A stretch of DNA of 64,000 bases from Flavobacteriales bacterium (lineage in GTDB: Bacteria; Bacteroidota; Bacteroidia; Flavobacteriales_F; PHOS-HE28). The notes beneath the pieces are model-generated. The model was not told the origin of the DNA, did no database searches, and was given only the letters and a program-made list of their open reading frames with translations. The position numbers and the translations under genes are program-made. The stretch spans positions 2,461,497-2,525,496 of the forward strand of contig CP129489.1 of NCBI GenBank assembly GCA_030584065.1, given 5' to 3'. Shown one piece after another: positions 24,365 through 50,025 of the stretch. Each line of letters opens with the position of its first letter. Position 1 is the stretch's first letter.

Positions 24365-25609
24365 ATGCCGAAACGGTACGCCCTTCTTCTTTGCTCCCTT
24401 TCCTACGCACTGGCAACGGCAGCGCAGGACGACCTGGACCAGCGGCTCAACCGGCTGATGGAACATGGCGCACGGCTTCGCGAGCAGCAGCAGGCCCTCA
24501 CCGCCAGGCTCGACTCGACCAAGCTGGCCATCATCCGGCGCGACCTGCTCGCCAAAGGCCTGCCGAAGCTCGAGGCCGGCGAGACCCTCATCACGCACCC
24601 GGGCCACCTGCTCGTGTACAGCGAACGGCACGAGCAGGCCAAATGGGTCGCGCACATCGCTTCGCCGGACCTCATCACCGGCAGCCTGGCCCGCATCGAC
24701 TCATTCCTTCCCGATCCCAAGGTGAGCACGGGCACCGCGGTCACGGCCGATTACTGGAACAGCGGTTACGACCGCGGGCACCTGGTGCCGAGCGCCGATA
24801 TGCGGTGGAACGGCGATGCCCTGCTGGCCACCTACTACTACAGCAACATCAGCCCGCAGAAGCCTGAGCTGAACCGCGGCACGTGGGCGGAGCTGGAGGA
24901 TTGGGGGCGCCGCTACGTGAACTTCAGCAAGCGCCGGGTATTCGTGGTCACAGGCCCTGTGCTCCGGGAGGACCTGCCCACCCTGCAGAAAGCGGACAGG
25001 AAGAATGAGGTGAGCATCCCGGAGCTCTTCTGGAAGGTGATCGCCGACCTGGATGGCGAGCAGCCCAAGGCCATTGCCTTCGTGATGCGGAATGCCGCAC
25101 AGGAATACCCGCCCATCAGCTACGCCGTCCCCGTGGACAGCGTGGAGCGCCTCACCGGCCTGGACTTCTTCCATGCGCTGGACGATGCCACGGAAGCGCG
25201 CATCGAGGCCATGCGCGAGCCGCAGGACTGGTATGCCGAGGGCGATCCCTTCTTCGGCGAGGCCGAGCCGTTGCGGGCACCGCTCCCCAAGGGCATGTTC
25301 AACACGGTGCAGGCGAAATACCACATCGGCAAGACGGCCACGGTATGCGGCACCGTGGTGAGCACCCGCAAGACCGCGAAGGCCAAGGCCATCTACCTCA
25401 ACTTCGACCGGATGCACCCGCATCAGGACTTCTATGCCACCATCTGGGAGTACAACGGGCCCAATTTCAGCTACGACCCTGAGACCCATTTCCTTCAGAA
25501 GAAGGTCTGCGTAACGGGCAAGGTGACGGTGTTCGACGACATCCCCCGTATCAGCATCAACAACGAGAATGAAGTGATGCTCTACGACGAGGCCGTGACC
25601 GGGCGCTGA
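24365..25609 (+). CDS. Secreted DNA/RNA non-specific endonuclease (NUC1) with C-terminal OB-like domain
   Basis: 414 residues. Sec signal peptide (about 1-20), a helical coiled-coil stretch (22-60), then a beta-beta-alpha-Me nuclease domain with the active-site motif DRGH (136-139, His139 as general base) followed by LVPSADM and a metal-binding Asn in YYYSNISPQKPELNRG. After residue 300 comes a beta-rich part (KTATVCGTVVSTRKTAKAKA, VCVTGKVTVFDDIPRI) that looks like an OB-fold. Export suggests degradation of extracellular or periplasmic nucleic acid. The stop abuts the stop of the convergent histidine kinase gene. Confidence 0.92.
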   Translation: MPKRYALLLCSLSYALATAAQDDLDQRLNRLMEHGARLREQQQALTARLDSTKLAIIRRDLLAKGLPKLEAGETLITHPGHLLVYSERHEQAKWVAHIASPDLITGSLARIDSFLPDPKVSTGTAVTADYWNSGYDRGHLVPSADMRWNGDALLATYYYSNISPQKPELNRGTWAELEDWGRRYVNFSKRRVFVVTGPVLREDLPTLQKADRKNEVSIPELFWKVIADLDGEQPKAIAFVMRNAAQEYPPISYAVPVDSVERLTGLDFFHALDDATEARIEAMREPQDWYAEGDPFFGEAEPLRAPLPKGMFNTVQAKYHIGKTATVCGTVVSTRKTAKAKAIYLNFDRMHPHQDFYATIWEYNGPNFSYDPETHFLQKKVCVTGKVTVFDDIPRISINNENEVMLYDEAVTGR

Positions 25610-34764: not shown

Positions 34765-37700
34765 TCACCGAAGCAGGGTGACATGGCCGATGCGCTCGAC
34801 GCGGTCGCCGCTGTAGGCGTCCTTTACGCGCACCTGCCAGACGTACACATCGGATGGGGCATCCGAGCCATCGGGCAACCGGCCATCCCATGCGATGCCG
34901 GGCGTTTCACTGCCGAAGACCTGGAGGCCCCAGCGATCGAACACCTCGAAGCGATAGTAGCGTTCATCTATGCCGACCACGACCGGCACGAAGCCCTCAT
35001 TGCGCGCATCCTCATTCGGGGTGAATGTGTTGGGCACCCAAAGCACCATGCCATCCTCCAGCGTGATGTAGCGGCACACGGTATCCGCGCACTGCGCGGA
35101 GGCGTAAGCGAGCAGGCAGACCCCATACGTGTCGCCGATGACGGCGGGGAACGTGTACTGGAGGTCCACCGCCTCGGAGACCGGCTGCCCATTGATTAGC
35201 CAGGCATAGTCGGCGGCTCCTGTGCTCGCATTGCTGAAGAAGGCCGTGGGCTGCAGGGTGGTAATGGCTTCCGGGAGCATGCCGAATGCCGCGGTCGGCT
35301 GGGCATACACGGTGACCGCGCCGTCCAGTGTCACCGTGTCGGCACCGCACCCGTTCCCGGCATCCACAATGAGCGTGACATCATAGCTGCCCGGCGCAGC
35401 ATAGATGTGCGTGAAGGGCGCGCATTGCTCCACAACCTGGCCGTCGCCCAGGAACCACGTGCATGTTCCATTGCCGGTATAGCCATGGGAGAAGTCGATC
35501 TCGACCGGAGCGCACTCACCTCCGCTCAGCGCCTCGAATGACGCCACAGCGGGAGGGACCACCGAGATGGAGACCGTGGCGCTCTCCTGCGGGCAAGGCG
35601 AGGCCGGTGTCACCGTGTAGGTATAATCGCCGGAAGCATCCACGGCCGGGTCGAAAACGGCGGTGGTCAAGGGCCCTGCCGGTCCGGTCCATGTTCCTCC
35701 AGTGTCCGGGCTGCCGCCCAGCGATGCGAAGAGGTCGACCGACGGATCGCTGGAGCAGAGCGCGAAGGCGCTGTCCAGACCGGCGTTCGCCGCCGTCGCC
35801 ACAGCCACGAGCACCACGGCCGAATCATTCACGCAGGGCAACGAACCCAAGACCGTGTACGTGTATGTGCCGGGCGTGGACGCACCCGGGTCGAACACGC
35901 CGTTGGCCGGAACGCCATCCGGACCGATCCAATAACCGCCGGCCTGGGGGGAGCCGCCAAGGCCATCCAGCAATGCCATGGGCGCAGCTGATGCACAGAG
36001 CGCGAGTGATCCGTCCTCCCCGGCGAATGCGACCGGGTGGATGACCACGAGGACCGTGGAGCTGGCGGATGGGCAAGGGGCGTCGCCAGCGACCAAGTAG
36101 GTGTAGACCCCTGCCGCGTGAGCGACGGGATCGAGGATGGCGCCGTGCGGGGACCCATCGGGTGCCGCCCATGTGCCGCCGGCATCCAAAGTCCCCGCAA
36201 GGCCATCGAATAGTGATTGGGGCGAGCCGTTGGAGCAGAACGTCAATGTGCCGCTCACCCCGGCCAAGGGTGCTTGCGAAACGGCAATGGTCAGGACTGC
36301 ATCATCAGACGGGCAGGAACTCGTTCCTGGAACCACATAGCTGTAGGCTCCGGCTATCGACACCCCTGGCGTGAACCAAGCTGGCACTACGGACCCACTG
36401 GCATCGGACCAAGCCCCGCCCGAGCCCGGTGTTCCGCCCAACTGCTCGACCAGCGCGAAAGGCGGATCGCTGCTGCACACCGTAATCGACGCATCCTCGC
36501 CGGCATAGGCGCCAGGGAGGATATTGACGGTCACGATGGAGACAGCGTCAGGACAGGCAGATCCCGCGAGGATGTAGGACTGTTCACCGCCAGTATCCGA
36601 TGCAGAATCGAAAATCCCGTCAAAGGGTGTTCCATCTGGATGCGTCCAAGTGCCACCTGCATCAGGACTCCCGCCGAGCACGGTGAACAGATTCACTGCC
36701 GCTGCGCCGGGGCAGAGATCGATGCTGGCATCCACGCCAGGATTGCTGGGCTGCTCCTCCGCTACCACGACTTGAGCAATTGCATCACTGCAAGGCGCAG
36801 CCGCCGAAACGGTGTACGTGTATACGCCCGGGCTCATCGTGACCGGATCGTAGCTGCCGCCAACCACCGCGCTCGGGCCGCTCCAGCTCCCGCCCGCATC
36901 GGGGCTGCCGCCAAGCTGCGCGAACAGGTCCAGCGCGATGCCATCGCCGCACACCGTGGCGCTGCCGTCCGTGCCCGCATCCGGCGAGCTCGTCTCGGTC
37001 ACCGTCACCGTCGCCGATGCGTTCGCGCAGGGCGCCGTGCCCGCCACCGTGTACGTGTACACCCCGGGGTCCATCGCGGCCGGGTCGTAGTTGCCGCCAG
37101 CAACAGGTGATGGGCCGCTCCAGCTGCCGCCGGCATCAGGGCTGCCGCCAAGCTGCGCGAGGAGGCTCACCGCTGCGCCCGCATCGCAGACCGTCAGCGT
37201 GCCGCTGCTCCCGGCATCCGCAGGTGCGCTCTCGGTGACGGTCACCGTGGCGCTGCTGCTCACGCACGGCGCAGCCGCCGTGAGCGTGTAGGTGTACACC
37301 CCGGGATCCATCGTGACCGGATCGTAGCTGCCGCCAACCACCGCGCTCGGGCCGCTCCAGCTCCCGCCCGCATCGGGGCTGCCGCCAAGCTGCGCGAACA
37401 GGTCCAGCGCGATGCCATCGCCGCACACCGTGGCGCTGCCGTCCGTGCCCGCATCCGGCGAGCTCGTCTCGGTCACCGTCACCGTCGCCGATGCGTTCGC
37501 GCAGGGCGCCGTGCCCGCCACCGTGTACGTGTACACCCCGGGGTCCATCGCGGCCGGGTCGTAGTTGCCGCCAGCAACAGGTGATGGGCCGCTCCAGCTG
37601 CCGCCGGCATCAGGGCTGCCGCCAAGCTGCGCGAGGAGGCTCACCGCTGCGCCCGCATCGCAGACCGTCAGCGTGCCGCTGCTCCCGGCATCCGCAGGTG

Positions 37701-40700
37701 CGCTCTCGGTGACGGTCACCGTGGCGCTGCTGCTCACGCACGGCGCAGCCGCCGTGAGCGTGTAGGTGTACGCCCCGGGATCCATCGTGACCGGATCGTA
37801 GCTGCCGCCAACCACCGCGCTCGGGCCGCTCCAGCTCCCGCCCGCATCGGGGCTGCCGCCAAGCTGCGCGAACAGGTCCAGCGCGATGCCATCGCCGCAC
37901 ACCGTGGCGCTGCCGTCCGTGCCCGCATCCGGCGAGCTCGTCTCGGTCACCGTCACCGTCGCCGATGCGTTCGCGCAGGGCGCCGTGCCCGCCACCGTGT
38001 ACGTGTACACCCCGGGGTCCATCGCGGCCGGGTCGTAGTTGCCGCCAGCAACAGGTGATGGGCCGCTCCAGCTGCCGCCGGCATCAGGGCTGCCGCCAAG
38101 CTGCGCGAGGAGGCTCACCGCTGCGCCCGCATCGCAGACCGTCAGCGTGCCGCTGCTCCCGGCATCCGCAGGTGCGCTCTCGGTGACGGTCACCGTGGCG
38201 CTGCTGCTCACGCACGGCGCAGCCGCCGTGAGCGTGTAGGTGTACGCCCCGGGATCCATCGTGACCGGATCGTAGCTGCCGCCAACCACCGCGCTCGGGC
38301 CGCTCCAGCTCCCGCCCGCATCGGGGCTGCCGCCAAGCTGCGCGAACAGGTCCAGCGCGACGCCATCGCCGCACACCGTGGCGCTGCCGTCCGTGCCCGC
38401 ATCCGGCGAGCTCGTCTCGGTCACCGTCACCGTCGCCGATGCGTTCGCGCAGGGCGCCGTGCCCGCCACCGTGTACGTGTACACCCCGGGGTCCATCGCG
38501 GCCGGGTCGTAGTTGCCGCCAGCAACAGGTGATGGGCCGCTCCAGCTGCCGCCAGCATCAGGGCTGCCGCCAAGCTGCGCGAGGAGGCTCACCGCTGCGC
38601 CCGCATCGCAGACCGTCAGCGTGCCGCTGCTCCCGGCATCCGCAGGCGCGCTCTCGGTGATGGTCACCGTGGCGCTGCTGCTCACGCACGGCGCAGCCGC
38701 CGTGAGCGTGTAGGTGTACGCCCCGGGATCCATCGTCGACGGATCGTAGCTGCCGCCAACCACCGCGCTCGGGCCGCTCCAGCTCCCGCCCGCATCGGGG
38801 CTGCCGCCAAGCTGCGCGAACAGGTCCAGCGCGACGCCATCGCCGCACACCGTGGCGCTGCCGTCCGTACCCGCATCCGGCGAGCTCGTCTCGGTCACCG
38901 TCACCGTCGCCGATGCGCTCGCGCAGGGAGCCGTGCCCGCCACCGTGTACGTGTACACCCCGGGGTCCATCGCGGCCGGGTCGTAGTTGCCGCCAGCAAC
39001 AGGTGATGGGCCGCTCCAGCTGCCGCCCGCATCAGGGCTGCCGCCAAGCTGCGCGAGGAGGCTCACCGCTGCGCCCGCATCGCAGACCGTCAGCGTGCCG
39101 CTGCTCCCGGCATCCGCAGGCGCGCTCTCGGTGACGGTCACCGTGGCGCTGCTGCTCACGCACGGCGCAGCCGCCGTGAGCGTGTAGGTGTACGCCCCGG
39201 GATCCATCGTGACCGGATCGTAGCTGCCGCCAACCACCGCGCTCGGGCCGCTCCAGCTCCCGCCCGCATCGGGGCTGCCGCCAAGCTGCGCGAACAGGTC
39301 CAGCGCGACGCCATCGCCGCACACCGTGGCGCTGCCGTCCGTGCCCGCATCCGGCGAGTTCGTCTCGGTCACCGTCACCGTCGCCGATGCGTTCGCGCAG
39401 GGCGCCGTGCCCGTCACCGTGTAGGTATATGCCCCGGGTACCATCGTGGCCGGGTCGTAGCTCCCGCCCGCCACGGGGCTCGGGCCGCTCCAGCTCCCGC
39501 CCGCATCGGGGCTGCCGCCCAAGGAGGCTGCCAGCGCGGCTGCTCCGCTCGTCGAGCACAGCGTCAGCGTTCCGTCCGTCCCCGCATCAGGCGCCGCGTT
39601 CTCCGTCACCGTCACTGTCGCCGATGCGTTCGCGCAGGGCGTCACGCCCGTCACCGTGTACGTGTACACCCCGGGGGCCATCGTGGCGGGGTCGTAGTTG
39701 CCGCCAGCTACAGGTGATGGGCCGCTCCAGGCGCCGCCCGCCTGCGGTGATCCACCCAGTTGGGCGAACAGCGACTGCGCGGCGCCATCGCTGCACACCG
39801 TCAGCGTGCCGTTGGTGCCCGCATCCGACGCGGCGTTCTCCGTCACCGTCACCGTCGCCGATGCGTTCGCGCAAGGCGCCGTGCCCGTCACCGTGTAGGT
39901 GTACACCCCGGGGGCCATCGTGGCCGGGTCGTAGCTCCCGCCAGCAACAGGTGATGGGCCGCTCCACGTGCCGCCCGCATCGGGGCTGCCGCCCAAGGAG
40001 GCTGCCAGCGCGGCTGCTCCGCTCGTCGAGCACAGCGTCAGCGTTCCGTCCGTCCCCGCATCAGGCGCCGCGTTCTCCGTCACCGTCACTGTCGCCGATG
40101 CGTTCGCGCAGGGCGTCACGCCCGTCACCGTGTACGTGTACACCCCGGGGGCCATCGTGGCGGGGTCGTAGTTGCCGCCAGCTACAGGTGATGGGCCGCT
40201 CCAGGCGCCGCCCGCCTGCGGTGATCCACCCAGTTGGGCGAACAGCGACTGCGCGGCGCCATCGCTGCACACCGTCAGCGTGCCGTTGGTGCCCGCATCC
40301 GACGCGGCGTTCTCCGTCACCGTCACCGTCGCCGATGCGTTCGCGCAAGGCGCCGTGCCCGTCACCGTGTAGGTGTACACCCCGGGGGCCATCGTGGCCG
40401 GGTCGTAGCTCCCGCCAGCAACAGGTGATGGGCCGCTCCACGTGCCGCCCGCATCGGGGCTGCCGCCCAAGGAGGCTACCAGCGCGGCTGCTCCGCTCGT
40501 CGAGCACAGCGTCAGCGTTCCGTCCGTCCCCGCATCCGGCGCCGCGTTCTCCGTCACCGTCACTGTCGCCGTGGCGTTCGTGCAGGGCGCCGTGCCCGTC
40601 ACCGTGTACGTGTACACCCCGGGGGCCATCGTGGCGGGGTCGTAGTTGCCGCCAGCTACAGGTGATGGGCCGCTCCAGCTGCCGCCCGCATCAGGGCTGC

Positions 40701-43700
40701 CGCCAAGCTGCGCGAGGAGGCTCACCGCTGCGCCCGCATCGCAGACCGTCAGCGTGCCGTTGGTGCCCGCATCCGGCGCGGCGTTCTCCGTCACCGTCAC
40801 CGTCGCCGATGCGTTCGCGCAAGGCGCTGTGCCCGCTACCGTGTAGGTGTAAACCCCAGGGTCCATCGTGGCCGGGTCGTAGCTCCCGCCCGCCACGGGG
40901 CTCGGGCCGCTCCAGCTCCCGCCCGCTTGCGGGCTGCCGCCCAGCTGCGCGAACAGGCTCACCGCTGCGCTCGTGCTGCAAAGGGTCACGGTGCCGTTGG
41001 TCCCGGCGTTCGGCGCCGCGTTCTCCGTCACCGTCACCGTCGCCGTGGCGTTCGCGCAGGGCGCCGTGCCCGTCACCGTGTAGGTGTACACCCCGGGGGC
41101 CATCGCGGCCGGGTCGTAGCTCCCGCCAGCAACAGGTGATGGGCCGCTCCACGCGCCGCCCGCCTGCGGTGATCCACCCAGTTGGGCGAACAGCGACTGT
41201 GCGGCGCCATCGCTGCACACCGTCAGCGTGCCGTTGGTGCCCGCATCCGGCGCCGCGTTCTCCGTCACCGTCACCGTCGCCGATGCGTTCGCGCAGGGCG
41301 CCGTGCCCGCCACCGTGTACGTGTACACCCCGGGGGGCATCGTGGCCGGGTCGTAGCTCCCGCCAGCTACAGGTGATGGGCCGCTCCAGGCGCCGCCCGC
41401 CTGCGGTGATCCACCCAGTTGGGCGAACAGCGACTGTGCGGCGCCATCGCTGCACACCGTCAGCGTGCCGTTGGTGCCCGCATCCGGCGCCGCGTTCTCC
41501 GTCACCGTCACCGTCGCCGATGCGTTCGCGCAGGGCGCCGTGCCCGTGACCGTGTAGGTATATGCCCCGGGTACCATCGTGGCCGGGTCGTAGCTCCCGC
41601 CCGCCACGGGGCTCGGGCCGCTCCAGCTCCCGCCCGCATCGGGGCTGCCGCCCAAGGAGGCTGCCAGCGCGGCTGCTCCGCTCGTCGAGCACAGCGTCAG
41701 CGTTCCGTCCGTCCCCGCATCCGGCGCCGCGTTCTCCGTCACCGTCACTGTGGCCGTGGCGTTCGTGCAGGGCGCCGTGCCCGTCACCGTGTACGTGTAC
41801 ACCCCGGGGGCCATCGTGGCGGGGTCGTAGTTGCCGCCAGCTACAGGTGATGGGCCGCTCCAGCTGCCGCCCGCATCAGGGCTGCCGCCAAGCTGCGCGA
41901 GGAGGCTCACCGCTGCGCCCGCATCGCAGACCGTCAGCGTGCCGTTGGTGCCCGCATCCGGCGCGGCGTTCTCCGTCACCGTCACCGTCGCCGATGCGTT
42001 CGCGCAAGGCGCTGTGCCCGCTACCGTGTAGGTGTAAACCCCGGGGTCCATCGCGGCCGGGTCGTAGCTCCCGCCAGCAACAGGTGATGGGCCGCTCCAC
42101 GCGCCGCCCGCCTGCGGTGATCCACCCAGTTGGGCGAACAGCGACTGCGCGGCGCCATCGCTGCACACCGTCAGCGTGCCGTTGGTGCCCGCATCCGACG
42201 CGGCGTTCTCCGTCACCGTCACCGTCGCCGTGGCGTTCGCGCAGGGCGCTGTGCCCGCTACCGTGTAGGTGTAAACCCCAGGGTCCATCGCGGCCGGGTC
42301 GTAGCTGCCGCCAGCAACAGGTGATGGGCCGCTCCAGCTGCCGCCCGCTTGCGGGCTGCCGCCCAGCTGCGCGAACAGGCTCACCGCTGCGCTCGTGCTG
42401 CAAAGGGTCACGGTGCCGTTGGTCCCGGCGTTCGGCGCCGCGTTCTCCGTCACCGTCACCGTCGCCGTGGCGTTCGCGCAGGGCGCCGTGCCCGTCACCG
42501 TGTAGGTGTACACCCCGGGGTCCATCGTGGCCGGGTCGTAGCTGCCGCCAGCAACAGGTGATGGGCCGCTCCAGCTGCCGCCCGCTTGCGGGCTGCCGCC
42601 CAGCTGCGCGAACAGGCTCACCGCTGCGCTCGTGCTGCAAAGGGTCACGGTGCCGTTGGTCCCGGCGTTCGGCGCCGCGTTCTCCGTCACCGTCACCGTC
42701 GCCGTGGCGTTCGCGCAAGGCGCTGTGCCCGCTACCGTGTAGGTGTAAACCCCAGGGTCCATCGTGGCCGGGTCGTAGCTGCCGCCAGCAACAGGTGATG
42801 GGCCGCTCCAGCTGCCGCCCGCTTGCGGGCTGCCGCCCAGCTGCGCGAACAGGCTCACCGCTGCGCTCGTGCTGCAAAGGGTCACGGTGCCGTTGGTCCC
42901 GGCGTTCGGCGCCGCGTTCTCCGTCACCGTCACCGTCGCCGTGGCGTTCGCGCAGGGCGGTGCGCTGGGCACCGTGTAGGTGTATACCCCAGGCGCCATG
43001 GTGACCGGGTTGTACAATCCACCAGCCACCGGGCTCGGGCCGCTCCACGTTCCACCGGCATCGGGTGCGCCGCCGAGGACTGTGAGCAGGCTGAAGGATG
43101 CCCCATTGCCGCAAACCGCGATGGTTCCATCCGTACCTGCGTCGCTCGTGGCACCTTGATTCACGGTAACCGTTGCGGAAGCATTCTGGCAGCCATTTCC
43201 GACCGTATAGGTGTAGGCACCGTATAGGTCGTTGGAAGGGTCGAAGAGCCCTGGGTGCGACGCACCATTGGGCCCGGTCCACACACCGCCTGCATCCGGG
43301 GAGCCGCCGAGCTGTCCGAAAAGATTGATGGCCGGCGTACCGGCGCATGAAGAAATCACCACGGATGTGCCGGGGTCCGGCGGAATCGGCGGGGGCGTAA
43401 CCACGGTGATGGTCAGCTCATAACTGGAGAGGTTCTCCAACGGACACGCGTTGTCATTGACATTGATCAGTACCGAGGCTGGGGAGAGCCCGAGATCAGG
43501 GGTCCAGCAAATGGTTGCCACCGCCGGATTGGAACCCGACACCGAGAACGTGGCGCCGGGCAGCTGGGACGTGACTTGGGAGGCCAGCGTGACGACAGCC
43601 AGCGGATCAACGTCACTGAAGGACAGATCAACACAGAACGGTATGCCGTCGCAGACCTGGATGCCCGTCGCACTGGTGATGACTCCATTGGAGATCGATG

Positions 43701-44556
43701 TAGGTCCCAGGTTGGTCGCCGGCGGGTCGATGCACGGAATCACAATGAACAGGAAGTCCCGCATCACGGTACCAATCAGCTGCCCCAAGGCATTGTAGGA
43801 TGCGACCTGCAGCGCCACCACATAGCTGCCGGTTATCGTAGGGGTGAAGTTGATCTGTCCGGTGTTGGGATTGAGCGTCACACCCGGAATGGGCGTGCCG
43901 GCAGTGAAGCCCGGGATATAGTTCACGTTGGTCGGCGCCGGAGCTGCGAAGCGCGCGCTGATGAACGAGTATACCAGCGTGTTCCCGTCGGCGTCGGTCA
44001 CCTCCGGGTTGTAAGAGACAGGCGTGCCCACGCACACATACGGGATGGACTGGTCGCCGAACTGGGGGGATTGGTCGCAAAGCCCTCCAGCATTGTTGAT
44101 GGTTGCCGCCACGTACATGCCGGGGGTCAGCTGCACGTTCTGGGTGGTGGCGCGGCAGCAAATGCTCCAGCTGATCGTCCACGCGTTACAGGGGGACAGT
44201 ACGATCGTAGTCTGGAACCGGTAGTGCCGGATGCCTGGAAGAGTGCCCCCGTTGCAGGTGCTGTTGGCCAGTTGGGAGCCGCAGAGCTGGGAAACCTCTT
44301 CGGTTTGAACGAGGGGAATATTGGGCAAGGAGAATGAGACCCCGCAGTTATTGGAGAAATTGAGCGTCTGGGGCGTGATGGGGGCTCCCGAGCAGTCCAG
44401 GAAGAGATCGAGGGTGATCCTGTACTGATTGGGGCCTACGCACTCATAGGTGATGTTGGCACCGGAGTAATGATCGGCCCTGGCTTCAGCCAAGCCCCAC
44501 CCCATGGCGAGGACAACGATCACCAATCGACGAAATGCACCGAACCGCTCAACCAT
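34765..44556 (-). CDS. Giant repetitive surface protein with type B T9SS sorting domain
   Basis: About 3,263 residues. Signal peptide 1-22 (MVERFGAFRRLVIVVLAMGW); a Cys-rich N-terminal region (23-470); diverged Ig-like/PKD-like copies to 548; 26 repeats of exactly 79 residues (549-2602) built around LCSTSAAVSLFAQLGGSP, WSGPSPVAGG and PGVYTYTV; five diverged copies (to about 3000); a PKD-like domain (WFLGDGQ, HIYAAPGSYDVTLIVD); and a gliding-associated C-terminal domain (VPNTFTPNEDARNEGF, FDRWGLQVF, GHVTLLR) directing export and attachment by T9SS. Residues 267-3161 contain no Lys or Arg. Start ATG 44556 was chosen because the -7 element at 44602-44609 excludes earlier starts. Probable adhesin or surface fibre; ligand unknown. 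Confidence 0.93.
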   Translation of the reverse strand: MVERFGAFRRLVIVVLAMGWGLAEARADHYSGANITYECVGPNQYRITLDLFLDCSGAPITPQTLNFSNNCGVSFSLPNIPLVQTEEVSQLCGSQLANSTCNGGTLPGIRHYRFQTTIVLSPCNAWTISWSICCRATTQNVQLTPGMYVAATINNAGGLCDQSPQFGDQSIPYVCVGTPVSYNPEVTDADGNTLVYSFISARFAAPAPTNVNYIPGFTAGTPIPGVTLNPNTGQINFTPTITGSYVVALQVASYNALGQLIGTVMRDFLFIVIPCIDPPATNLGPTSISNGVITSATGIQVCDGIPFCVDLSFSDVDPLAVVTLASQVTSQLPGATFSVSGSNPAVATICWTPDLGLSPASVLINVNDNACPLENLSSYELTITVVTPPPIPPDPGTSVVISSCAGTPAINLFGQLGGSPDAGGVWTGPNGASHPGLFDPSNDLYGAYTYTVGNGCQNASATVTVNQGATSDAGTDGTIAVCGNGASFSLLTVLGGAPDAGGTWSGPSPVAGGLYNPVTMAPGVYTYTVPSAPPCANATATVTVTENAAPNAGTNGTVTLCSTSAAVSLFAQLGGSPQAGGSWSGPSPVAGGSYDPATMDPGVYTYTVAGTAPCANATATVTVTENAAPNAGTNGTVTLCSTSAAVSLFAQLGGSPQAGGSWSGPSPVAGGSYDPATMDPGVYTYTVTGTAPCANATATVTVTENAAPNAGTNGTVTLCSTSAAVSLFAQLGGSPQAGGSWSGPSPVAGGSYDPAAMDPGVYTYTVAGTAPCANATATVTVTENAASDAGTNGTLTVCSDGAAQSLFAQLGGSPQAGGAWSGPSPVAGGSYDPAAMDPGVYTYTVAGTAPCANASATVTVTENAAPDAGTNGTLTVCDAGAAVSLLAQLGGSPDAGGSWSGPSPVAGGNYDPATMAPGVYTYTVTGTAPCTNATATVTVTENAAPDAGTDGTLTLCSTSGAAALAASLGGSPDAGGSWSGPSPVAGGSYDPATMVPGAYTYTVTGTAPCANASATVTVTENAAPDAGTNGTLTVCSDGAAQSLFAQLGGSPQAGGAWSGPSPVAGGSYDPATMPPGVYTYTVAGTAPCANASATVTVTENAAPDAGTNGTLTVCSDGAAQSLFAQLGGSPQAGGAWSGPSPVAGGSYDPAAMAPGVYTYTVTGTAPCANATATVTVTENAAPNAGTNGTVTLCSTSAAVSLFAQLGGSPQAGGSWSGPSPVAGGSYDPATMDPGVYTYTVAGTAPCANASATVTVTENAAPDAGTNGTLTVCDAGAAVSLLAQLGGSPDAGGSWSGPSPVAGGNYDPATMAPGVYTYTVTGTAPCTNATATVTVTENAAPDAGTDGTLTLCSTSGAAALVASLGGSPDAGGTWSGPSPVAGGSYDPATMAPGVYTYTVTGTAPCANASATVTVTENAASDAGTNGTLTVCSDGAAQSLFAQLGGSPQAGGAWSGPSPVAGGNYDPATMAPGVYTYTVTGVTPCANASATVTVTENAAPDAGTDGTLTLCSTSGAAALAASLGGSPDAGGTWSGPSPVAGGSYDPATMAPGVYTYTVTGTAPCANASATVTVTENAASDAGTNGTLTVCSDGAAQSLFAQLGGSPQAGGAWSGPSPVAGGNYDPATMAPGVYTYTVTGVTPCANASATVTVTENAAPDAGTDGTLTLCSTSGAAALAASLGGSPDAGGSWSGPSPVAGGSYDPATMVPGAYTYTVTGTAPCANASATVTVTETNSPDAGTDGSATVCGDGVALDLFAQLGGSPDAGGSWSGPSAVVGGSYDPVTMDPGAYTYTLTAAAPCVSSSATVTVTESAPADAGSSGTLTVCDAGAAVSLLAQLGGSPDAGGSWSGPSPVAGGNYDPAAMDPGVYTYTVAGTAPCASASATVTVTETSSPDAGTDGSATVCGDGVALDLFAQLGGSPDAGGSWSGPSAVVGGSYDPSTMDPGAYTYTLTAAAPCVSSSATVTITESAPADAGSSGTLTVCDAGAAVSLLAQLGGSPDAGGSWSGPSPVAGGNYDPAAMDPGVYTYTVAGTAPCANASATVTVTETSSPDAGTDGSATVCGDGVALDLFAQLGGSPDAGGSWSGPSAVVGGSYDPVTMDPGAYTYTLTAAAPCVSSSATVTVTESAPADAGSSGTLTVCDAGAAVSLLAQLGGSPDAGGSWSGPSPVAGGNYDPAAMDPGVYTYTVAGTAPCANASATVTVTETSSPDAGTDGSATVCGDGIALDLFAQLGGSPDAGGSWSGPSAVVGGSYDPVTMDPGAYTYTLTAAAPCVSSSATVTVTESAPADAGSSGTLTVCDAGAAVSLLAQLGGSPDAGGSWSGPSPVAGGNYDPAAMDPGVYTYTVAGTAPCANASATVTVTETSSPDAGTDGSATVCGDGIALDLFAQLGGSPDAGGSWSGPSAVVGGSYDPVTMDPGVYTYTLTAAAPCVSSSATVTVTESAPADAGSSGTLTVCDAGAAVSLLAQLGGSPDAGGSWSGPSPVAGGNYDPAAMDPGVYTYTVAGTAPCANASATVTVTETSSPDAGTDGSATVCGDGIALDLFAQLGGSPDAGGSWSGPSAVVGGSYDPVTMSPGVYTYTVSAAAPCSDAIAQVVVAEEQPSNPGVDASIDLCPGAAAVNLFTVLGGSPDAGGTWTHPDGTPFDGIFDSASDTGGEQSYILAGSACPDAVSIVTVNILPGAYAGEDASITVCSSDPPFALVEQLGGTPGSGGAWSDASGSVVPAWFTPGVSIAGAYSYVVPGTSSCPSDDAVLTIAVSQAPLAGVSGTLTFCSNGSPQSLFDGLAGTLDAGGTWAAPDGSPHGAILDPVAHAAGVYTYLVAGDAPCPSASSTVLVVIHPVAFAGEDGSLALCASAAPMALLDGLGGSPQAGGYWIGPDGVPANGVFDPGASTPGTYTYTVLGSLPCVNDSAVVLVAVATAANAGLDSAFALCSSDPSVDLFASLGGSPDTGGTWTGPAGPLTTAVFDPAVDASGDYTYTVTPASPCPQESATVSISVVPPAVASFEALSGGECAPVEIDFSHGYTGNGTCTWFLGDGQVVEQCAPFTHIYAAPGSYDVTLIVDAGNGCGADTVTLDGAVTVYAQPTAAFGMLPEAITTLQPTAFFSNASTGAADYAWLINGQPVSEAVDLQYTFPAVIGDTYGVCLLAYASAQCADTVCRYITLEDGMVLWVPNTFTPNEDARNEGFVPVVVGIDERYYRFEVFDRWGLQVFGSETPGIAWDGRLPDGSDAPSDVYVWQVRVKDAYSGDRVERIGHVTLLR
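36751..39357 (-). repeat. Higher-order 474-bp repeat (alternating A/B units)
   Basis: Eleven units in which type CGDG(V/I)ALDLFAQ (pairs with WSGPSAVVGG) strictly alternates with type CDAGAAVSLLAQ (pairs with WSGPSPVAGG). The pairs are nearly identical at the DNA level, so the two-unit block was probably the amplified element. Confidence 0.93.
39595..40542 (-). repeat. Recent duplication of a 474-bp two-unit block
   Basis: 39595-40068 and 40069-40542 read as near-identical DNA: the long stretches I compared match base for base, and the proteins differ only by Ala/Val in LAASLGG against LVASLGG. This is the youngest visible copy event in the array. Confidence 0.85.
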
Positions 44557-44601
44557 CACCGTGGGTCCTTGCCTATCCACTTTGGCGGGACAACAAGCCA
44601 T

Positions 44602-44609
44602 CAAAAGTA
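44602..44609 (-). promoter_or_regulatory. -7 promoter element for the giant surface protein gene
   Basis: TACTTTTG on the minus strand, a perfect TAnnTTTG, 45 bp before the ATG at 44556. Confidence 0.55.
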
Positions 44610-48684: not shown

Positions 48685-50025
48685 ATGAGAACAGCAGTAC
48701 TCGCCCTTGCCGTCATGTGGTCCGCAGCAGCGGGCGCACAGGTTTTCACCAGCGGCTTCGAGACCTGGAACGACACAGTGCCCGCTGAATGGATGGGCAG
48801 CAAGACCTCGTTGAGCGCCGACAGCGTGACCCAGGTGACCACGGATGTGCATGGCGGCACCTTCGCCGTGCGCCTCCAGAACAGCACCACGAGCCATCGG
48901 CGGTTCACCACGCAACCGGTACCCGTCACCAACGGGGCCATCTACGATGTGACCTACTGGGTGCGCGGCACCGGCGAGATCAGGACCGGCCTCTTCGATG
49001 ACCGGCCCTCGGGCGGCACTTCAGGATACGCGCCCTACACCAACTACTTCGTCTCCACCGGCAGCACCTGGACGCAGGTGACCCAGCAGATCTCCGCCGC
49101 CAACGACTTCGCCTCCGCCGAGTTCATCCTGTCCGTCCGCAGCACGGCCGGCCCGGAACACCTGGTGGTGGACGATGTGACGATCACCGAAGCCGCCCCG
49201 CCCGAGCCCGTGAGCATCTACGCCATCCAGTTCACCGCCGATCCGGGCGGCGCTTCGCCGCTCGCCGGTCAGATCGTGACCACGGGGGGCATCGTCACCG
49301 CGGTGGACACCATCGGGGCCGATAGCTACTTCATCCAGAGCGGCACGGGGCCGTGGACGGGCATCTACGTGAATGATGCCACCAACGCGGTGGCCCTCGG
49401 CGACAGCGTCATCATCACGGCCTCCGTGGAGGAAAGCTTCCAGTACACCCGCCTCACCAACGTCACCTCCTTCGCGGCAGAGGGCGGTTTCGCCGTGCCT
49501 GCCGCCGAAGTGCTCACCCCCAACCAAGCCAATGAGGAGCAATGGGAGGGCGTGCTGGTGAAGGTGCCGGATGTCGGCTGCACGGCGCTGCCCGACAACT
49601 TCGGCGAATGGCTCGCCACCAGCACCACCGGGGGCAGCATCATGATCAACGACCTGCTCTTCGCGTACACCCCGACCGTGGGGACCTTCTACACCATCAC
49701 CGGTGTGATGAACTACAGCTTCAACGCCCGCAAGCTGGAGCCCCGCTTCCTCGCCGACATCGAGTTCGGCAGCGGCGTGGCGGAGCAGGCGCAAGGCGCC
49801 TTGCTGGCCTACCCGAACCCCACCAACGGCATGGTGCGGCTCAGCGGCTGGGAGCCCAACGGTGGGGCGGACTTCAGCGTCACGGATGCCGCTGGACGCC
49901 TGGTCCTCAGCGGCCCGCTGATGAACCCTGTGGCCGACCTCGCCGGCCTGCCTGATGGCGCATACACGCTCTCCCTGCGCACGGCCGAGTCCGTGATCCG
50001 CACCCGCGTGGTGGTGCAGCGCTGA
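48685..50025 (+). CDS. Secreted OB-domain protein with type A T9SS sorting domain
   Basis: 446 residues. Signal peptide (cut near AGAQ, 19), a carbohydrate-binding-like beta-sandwich (FETWNDTVPAEWMG to about 165), then an OB-like domain (ASPLAGQIVTTGGIVTAVD, DSYFIQSG, GIYVND, VIITASVEE) of the kind found before the nuclease domain in YhcR/ExeM extracellular nucleases, and a C-terminal type A sorting domain (LLAYPNPTNGMVRLSG, YTLSLRTAESVIRTRVVVQR). No catalytic domain of its own is visible. Third gene of the receptor operon. Confidence 0.87.
   Translation: MRTAVLALAVMWSAAAGAQVFTSGFETWNDTVPAEWMGSKTSLSADSVTQVTTDVHGGTFAVRLQNSTTSHRRFTTQPVPVTNGAIYDVTYWVRGTGEIRTGLFDDRPSGGTSGYAPYTNYFVSTGSTWTQVTQQISAANDFASAEFILSVRSTAGPEHLVVDDVTITEAAPPEPVSIYAIQFTADPGGASPLAGQIVTTGGIVTAVDTIGADSYFIQSGTGPWTGIYVNDATNAVALGDSVIITASVEESFQYTRLTNVTSFAAEGGFAVPAAEVLTPNQANEEQWEGVLVKVPDVGCTALPDNFGEWLATSTTGGSIMINDLLFAYTPTVGTFYTITGVMNYSFNARKLEPRFLADIEFGSGVAEQAQGALLAYPNPTNGMVRLSGWEPNGGADFSVTDAAGRLVLSGPLMNPVADLAGLPDGAYTLSLRTAESVIRTRVVVQR

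Follow-up and report, generated by a model that had tools for sequence, protein, structure and literature searches.

How can a protein do without lysine and arginine over most of its length, and is their absence maintained by selection or merely left behind by the amplification of a repeat? This question is raised by a gene on the minus strand of the window, by which we mean the whole stretch of 64,000 nucleotides that was analysed. According to the preliminary description, the protein lacks Lys and Arg from residue 267 to residue 3161. A residue count over the ATG frame confirmed it: the longest Lys/Arg-free run comprises 2,895 residues, which is 88.7% of the 3,263 residues, and its flanks are VM-R-DF and C-R-YITL. 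The reported absence of His from the 26-copy core (residues 562–2615 when counted from the TTG) was found to be correct, and so was the statement that the diverged copies beyond the array are also devoid of Lys and Arg, as 841 of the 2,895 residues of the run lie outside it. The run is acidic, with a pI of 4.05 and a net charge of about −211 at pH 7. The binomial probability of such a run is about 10^-141 at the K+R content of the sampled proteome (10.6%, from 340 heuristic ORFs sampled over about 550 kb of the genome), a figure that ignores repetition; the decisive test is the one of K/R gains given below, which takes repetition into account. Chance and sequencing error were rejected because the frame is unbroken, the genome is a single contig and dozens of independent relatives share the property. 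The features of the locus are collected in Table 1.

Table 1. Features of the gene and of its translated protein, in positions of the window
Feature	Positions	Strand	Basis or remark
Whole gene from ATG	34765..44556	minus	3,263 aa; in-frame TTG 16 codons upstream at 44604
Predicted signal peptide, Sec, MVERFGAFRRLVIVVLAMGWGLAEARA	44476..44556	minus	by eye in the translation
N-terminal domain (DHYSGANITYEC...), ~248 aa, presumed tip	43732..44475	minus	conserved; matches in Bacteroidota genomes
Lys/Arg-free stretch, 2,895 residues	35074..43758	minus	ATG residues 267–3161
33 Ig-like units, ~75–79 aa	35566..43380	minus	iterated profile search
26-copy tandem array, period 237 bp (79 aa)	36760..42921	minus	Tandem Repeats Finder
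PKD domain (PF18911)	35329..35529	minus	hmmscan E 2.4e-8, over cut-off
T9SS type B C-terminal sorting domain (CHU_C PF13585 / TIGR04131), Lys/Arg-containing	34768..35037	minus	profile match

The frame is open from 34765 to 44604 if the TTG is the start and from 34765 to 44556 if it is the ATG, TTG numbering being 16 higher. The codon-position GC of the gene (0.62/0.64/0.81) supports a single, unbroken frame. The product belongs to the T9SS type B surface proteins of Flavobacteriales and has a predicted signal peptide; its earlier designation as a surface protein is borne out by this peptide together with the sorting domain. CHU_C PF13585 matches the C terminus with an E-value of 2.4e-10 and 40.8 bits, compared to a cut-off of 27, whereas TIGR04131 gave 38.9 bits in the genome search and 31.8 bits in the protein scan, the cut-off being 35. 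SprA (TIGR04189) is encoded in the genome, with a score of 2,569 bits. The N-terminal domain has matches in 90 of the 98 Bacteroidota genomes, with several copies per genome, and is 100% identical in the Flavobacteriales MAG UBA2426, which places the host within Flavobacteriales; searches with it returned no Pfam family above cut-off and no PDB relative by sequence. It is probably a widespread unnamed domain that forms the tip of such stalks. SprB repeats (PF13573) were matched neither by the whole protein nor by single units. The adjoining genes encode a dihydroorotase and a TonB-plug protein, and the window holds no PorP/SprF-like carrier gene, even if 12 PorP-family genes are present genome-wide, most of them close to other type B genes. 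An adjacent gene of this kind is common, not universal, among T9SS type B cargo, and it is not a defining trait. Elsewhere in the window there are a type A T9SS protein (48685–50025, plus) that carries CBM_4_9 and weakly matches extracellular nucleases of the ExeM/NucH type, and a DNA/RNA non-specific endonuclease (24365–25609).

Each of the 33 Ig-like units contains two Cys and one Trp, and the two Cys are invariant, which suggests one predicted disulfide per module. The identity between units of the array is 0.78 at lag 1 and 0.90 at lag 2, and the 26 copies comprise 23 distinct DNA units and 20 different amino-acid units. The array thus has a two-unit higher-order period, and its lag-2 identity shows that a double unit of 158 aa has expanded recently. 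An AlphaFold2 model of one unit is beta-rich with a mean pLDDT of 87, and the PDB structures closest to it are Ig-type domains (Z up to 6.7, 2.8 Å over 76 residues), with Z 8 taken as the level of a clear match; Foldseek returned no match to the model at an E-value under 0.001. The structure model of two units was poor (pLDDT 56) and was left unused.

Compared with the proteome and with related repeat proteins, the composition singled out by the preliminary description is truly depleted, but it is not unique. Among the 41 type B proteins read in the genome, eight have K/R-free runs longer than 1,000 aa, and the run of one paralogue (G000, 2266431–2276000) reaches 2,920 aa and exceeds that of the protein considered here. 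The last 95 residues of the type B proteins of the genome, which include the sorting domain, contain 5–12% Lys+Arg. In full-length orthologues of the genus, the runs comprise 2,499, 2,498, 3,221 and 3,620 residues. For a set of 40 type B ORFs with 33–59% GC, drawn from other families within the class, the median K+R of the core is 1.7%, compared to 10.8% in flanking ORFs, in a sample that is not random but taken from the best sorting-domain matches with preference for long ORFs. Shorter type B proteins are less depleted in this sample, several of them not markedly. Two SprB-repeat proteins of other families, L238 and L220, have K/R-free runs of 2,638 and 2,725 aa in genomes of 43–48% GC, and L237, with Ig_7, Big_2 and HYR domains, has one of 1,288 residues; the habit therefore spans unrelated repeat families at low and high GC. 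The absence of Lys and Arg is a class property of giant type B proteins, of which the present protein is an extreme case. Two relatives deserve separate mention. Paralogue L094 (G000:C1:2757561-2766206, minus) is built of the same Ig units, which here do contain Arg/Lys, most of it within YRYRL of a single strand; a PorP-like gene adjoins this paralogue, which may be a shaft with a different role. The frame of orthologue L110 (G021:C2) stops inside the repeats, without a sorting domain, possibly due to a frameshift or an assembly error.

The argument for selection was examined at codon level with 383 repeat units pooled from the protein, its paralogues and its orthologues. In a subset of 143 units that are pairwise less than 60% identical, there are only 33 K/R in 10,636 residues. 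Gains of Lys or Arg were counted by parsimony on a codon tree and compared to an expectation from one-step codon neighbours, with transitions weighted twofold. The 33 units of the protein show no gain against 36.6 expected, among 309 inferred amino-acid changes; the paralogue shows none against 45.7, and the orthologues nine against 391. The sorting domains of the same genome, used as control, gained K/R at the neutral rate (163 against 152 expected). Since many of the inferred changes are multi-step, the absolute numbers of gains are rough; the difference from the sorting domain is nevertheless large. Asp was gained at or above the neutral rate, whereas gains of His were about 5-fold and those of Glu about 2.5-fold below it. 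Amplification alone is refuted by this test, and the absence of K/R is kept by purifying selection visible at the codon level. The earlier preference for selection over mere amplification has thus been upheld by the diverged units and by the gain test.

The depletion is restricted to T9SS cargo, above all to shafts. Signal-bearing proteins without a T9SS domain, recognized heuristically by a simple pattern, have a median K+R of 11.4% in this genome, equal to that of signal-less proteins, and therefore Sec export itself is not the cause. The median is 4.35% for type A T9SS cargo, and the larger type B cores of the genome, pooled, have 1.3%. Within proteins, K+R density peaks close to the N-terminal end, which is presumed to be the tip, and has its minimum in the shaft; between proteins, the longer ones are more depleted (rho −0.68 in the class sample and −0.53 in this genome). 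Relative to flanking genes, 20 large proteins retain 0.07x of Lys, 0.066x of Arg and 0.13x of His. In the class sample, Lys and Arg are depleted to the same degree, whereas in this genome Lys is the more strongly depleted of the two. Besides, the type B cores of the genome are depleted in Glu, His and Met and enriched in Asn, Trp and Tyr; the depletion of Glu, His and Met indicates that small beta-forming residues are preferred in general, which accounts for part of the bias.

We lean, with slightly more confidence than doubt, towards the reading that the protein is a T9SS type B stalk in which purifying selection against positive charge keeps Lys and Arg out of the shaft. Such a stalk would exit through Sec and then SprA, its C-terminal domain would hold it at the outer membrane, and about 33 Ig-like modules with disulfides would form the shaft that displays its N-terminal tip domain. 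A tandem array would multiply any cationic patch by its copy number, so that a single bad residue could turn the shaft into a polycation-like fibre, which would cling to the cell's own anionic surface, to exopolysaccharide and to DNA. With neutral and negative residues only, the shaft would stay extended and inert, leaving binding to the tip, and it would also be immune to trypsin-like and Arg/Lys-specific proteases. Not sticking to the own cell surface, together with resistance to trypsin-like proteases, is probably the reason for the loss of Lys and Arg. We infer that the main target is charge and not proteolysis; the outer-membrane anchoring, the disulfides and the adhesive tip are predicted in the same manner.

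Several observations bear on the role of charge. The K/R that are left over have acids at ±2 in 1.4–1.55x excess, compared to about 1.0 in ordinary proteins, and net-positive windows of 9–25 residues occur at 0.76–0.83x of their frequency in shuffles, compared to 0.93–0.95 in ordinary proteins. No type B core of the genome is net positive, whereas 163 of the 340 background proteins are. The equal loss of Lys and Arg, the lesser loss of His and the acids beside leftover K/R favour positive charge as the property selected against, although acids next to K/R hinder trypsin too, so that this last signal is not exclusive to charge. The fibre had been described as strongly acidic, which holds for this protein but not as a shared trait, as some K/R-poor relatives have only 2–3% Asp+Glu; a strongly negative shaft is therefore not required, and the common factor is that there is no positive charge.

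Trypsin resistance, to which the composition had earlier been related, may be a strong rival of selection against charge or a joint benefit. If a trypsin-like or gingipain-like (Arg/Lys-specific) protease, of the cell itself or of a neighbour, cut the fibre once, the fibre would be severed and its distal part lost. The equal depletion of Lys and Arg fits this protection, as do its greater strength along the shaft and in longer proteins and the presence in the genome of two C25 peptidases and three trypsin-family proteins. In F. johnsoniae, deletion of porV was used to stop the export of endogenous proteases digesting a surface HaloTag-SprB448 (PMC10994853); since secreted PorV-dependent proteases attack this SprB fusion, protease pressure is plausible, maybe jointly with charge. 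However, Pro after leftover K/R is not in excess (39 against 44.5 and 70 against 78.2 expected), and the inter-Ig linkers contain 0.48% K/R compared to 0.16% within units, a difference that involves only eight linker residues, so that K/R are not scarcest where exposure is greatest. In addition, His, which trypsin ignores, is depleted, whereas the chymotryptic residues Tyr and Trp are not. These data do not establish trypsin-proofing as the reason for the composition, and we consider protection from proteases a plausible but less likely explanation. The second C25 (gingipain-family) peptidase lies in a 1,776-aa frame (G000:C1:3882281-3883372) and is a candidate source of Arg/Lys-specific protease pressure; the stronger C25 match, at 2134647, is possibly PorU.

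The secretion route itself might also purge long chains of positive residues if such residues pass SecYEG more slowly against the membrane potential. The rate of Sec transport is limited by Arg, and E. coli Sec substrates favour Lys over Arg (PMC9110029), a pattern that the stalk of E. coli YeeJ fits (R 1.2%, K 4.2%); moreover, the depletion grows with protein length. The same work, however, predicts that Lys replaces Arg, and Lys is not spared here. Sec-exported proteins without a T9SS domain are undepleted, the sorting domains pass the same channels with 3–14% K+R (genome and class sample), and T9SS proteins with 6–8% K+R also occur. An Arg-specific Sec bottleneck was rejected given that Lys is lost equally and Sec-only proteins are undepleted, and we regard secretion kinetics as an improbable cause. 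Hardly any credit can be given to a neutral by-product, in which a K/R-less ancestral unit was amplified, or base composition or nitrogen or energy saving shaped the protein. The recent expansion of the array, with its high lag-2 identity and few amino-acid units, is visible, but Lys and Arg are nearly absent from the diverged units as well and their gains are purged. Base composition is discarded as cause by a depletion that is alike across GC 0.32–0.67, and saving of nitrogen or energy is contradicted by the enrichment of nitrogen-rich Asn and of costly Trp and Tyr in the type B cores of the genome. Incompatibility of the fold with K/R was rejected too, as L094 bears Arg/Lys in the same domain, at the YRYR positions. 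The Bacteroidetes O-glycosylation motif is D[ST][AILMTV]; it occurs five times compared to 17 in shuffles, which gives no sign of O-glycosylation.

Taken alone, the protein adds another member to the T9SS type B stalks, and the class-wide rule matters more. We think it fairly probable that the shafts of giant T9SS proteins follow throughout Bacteroidota a rule of "no positive charge", to which unrelated repeat families (the Ig-like unit, SprB and Ig_7/Big_2/HYR) have come independently, which purifying selection enforces and which depends neither on base composition nor on a Sec bottleneck. If this is true, a compositional signature would separate the inert shaft from the binding tip in giant adhesins. 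Furthermore, proteins of at least 300 kDa would give almost no tryptic peptides, so that trypsin-based surface proteomics of Bacteroidota would be blind to such stalks. The rule would also provide a direct way of testing whether surface fibres are limited by charge stickiness, by proteolysis or by the speed of secretion. Our search of the open-access literature found no paper stating this rule for shafts, nor any on Lys/Arg-free giant surface proteins of Bacteroidota.

Known systems share some of these traits. SprB of Flavobacterium johnsoniae (PF13573, CHU_C) has, like the present protein, a very long repetitive shaft and a type B sorting domain, as well as a signal peptide, which is predicted here, and its SprB-repeat relatives L238 and L220 have the same K/R-free shaft; the present protein differs from SprB in its repeat family, has no PorP/SprF-like neighbour and shows no evidence of a gliding role. 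Ig_7 (PF19081) provides Ig-like modules in CHU_C proteins, as found here, and the Ig_7-bearing L237 shares the long K/R-free run, although the unit itself is not matched by PF19081. The grappling hook GhpA of the Aureispira predator (PDB 9g8b, 9fly, 9fls, 9flx, 9flv) is also a giant Bacteroidota surface protein, whose fragments make up five of the ten best Foldseek matches to the repeat unit; these matches are weak (best E 0.029, TM 0.51), and sequence similarity between both proteins was not found. YeeJ, an inverse autotransporter of E. coli, is likewise a Sec-exported giant with a Thr-rich stalk of tandem Ig-like domains, and its stalk is modestly depleted, with 5.4% K+R compared to 8.0% in neighbouring genes. 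It differs in its secretion route, in a longest K/R-free run of only 58 residues and in that Lys is kept while Arg is reduced. By analogy with YeeJ, partial depletion of K/R may be general for stalks, whereas the near-total loss is not.
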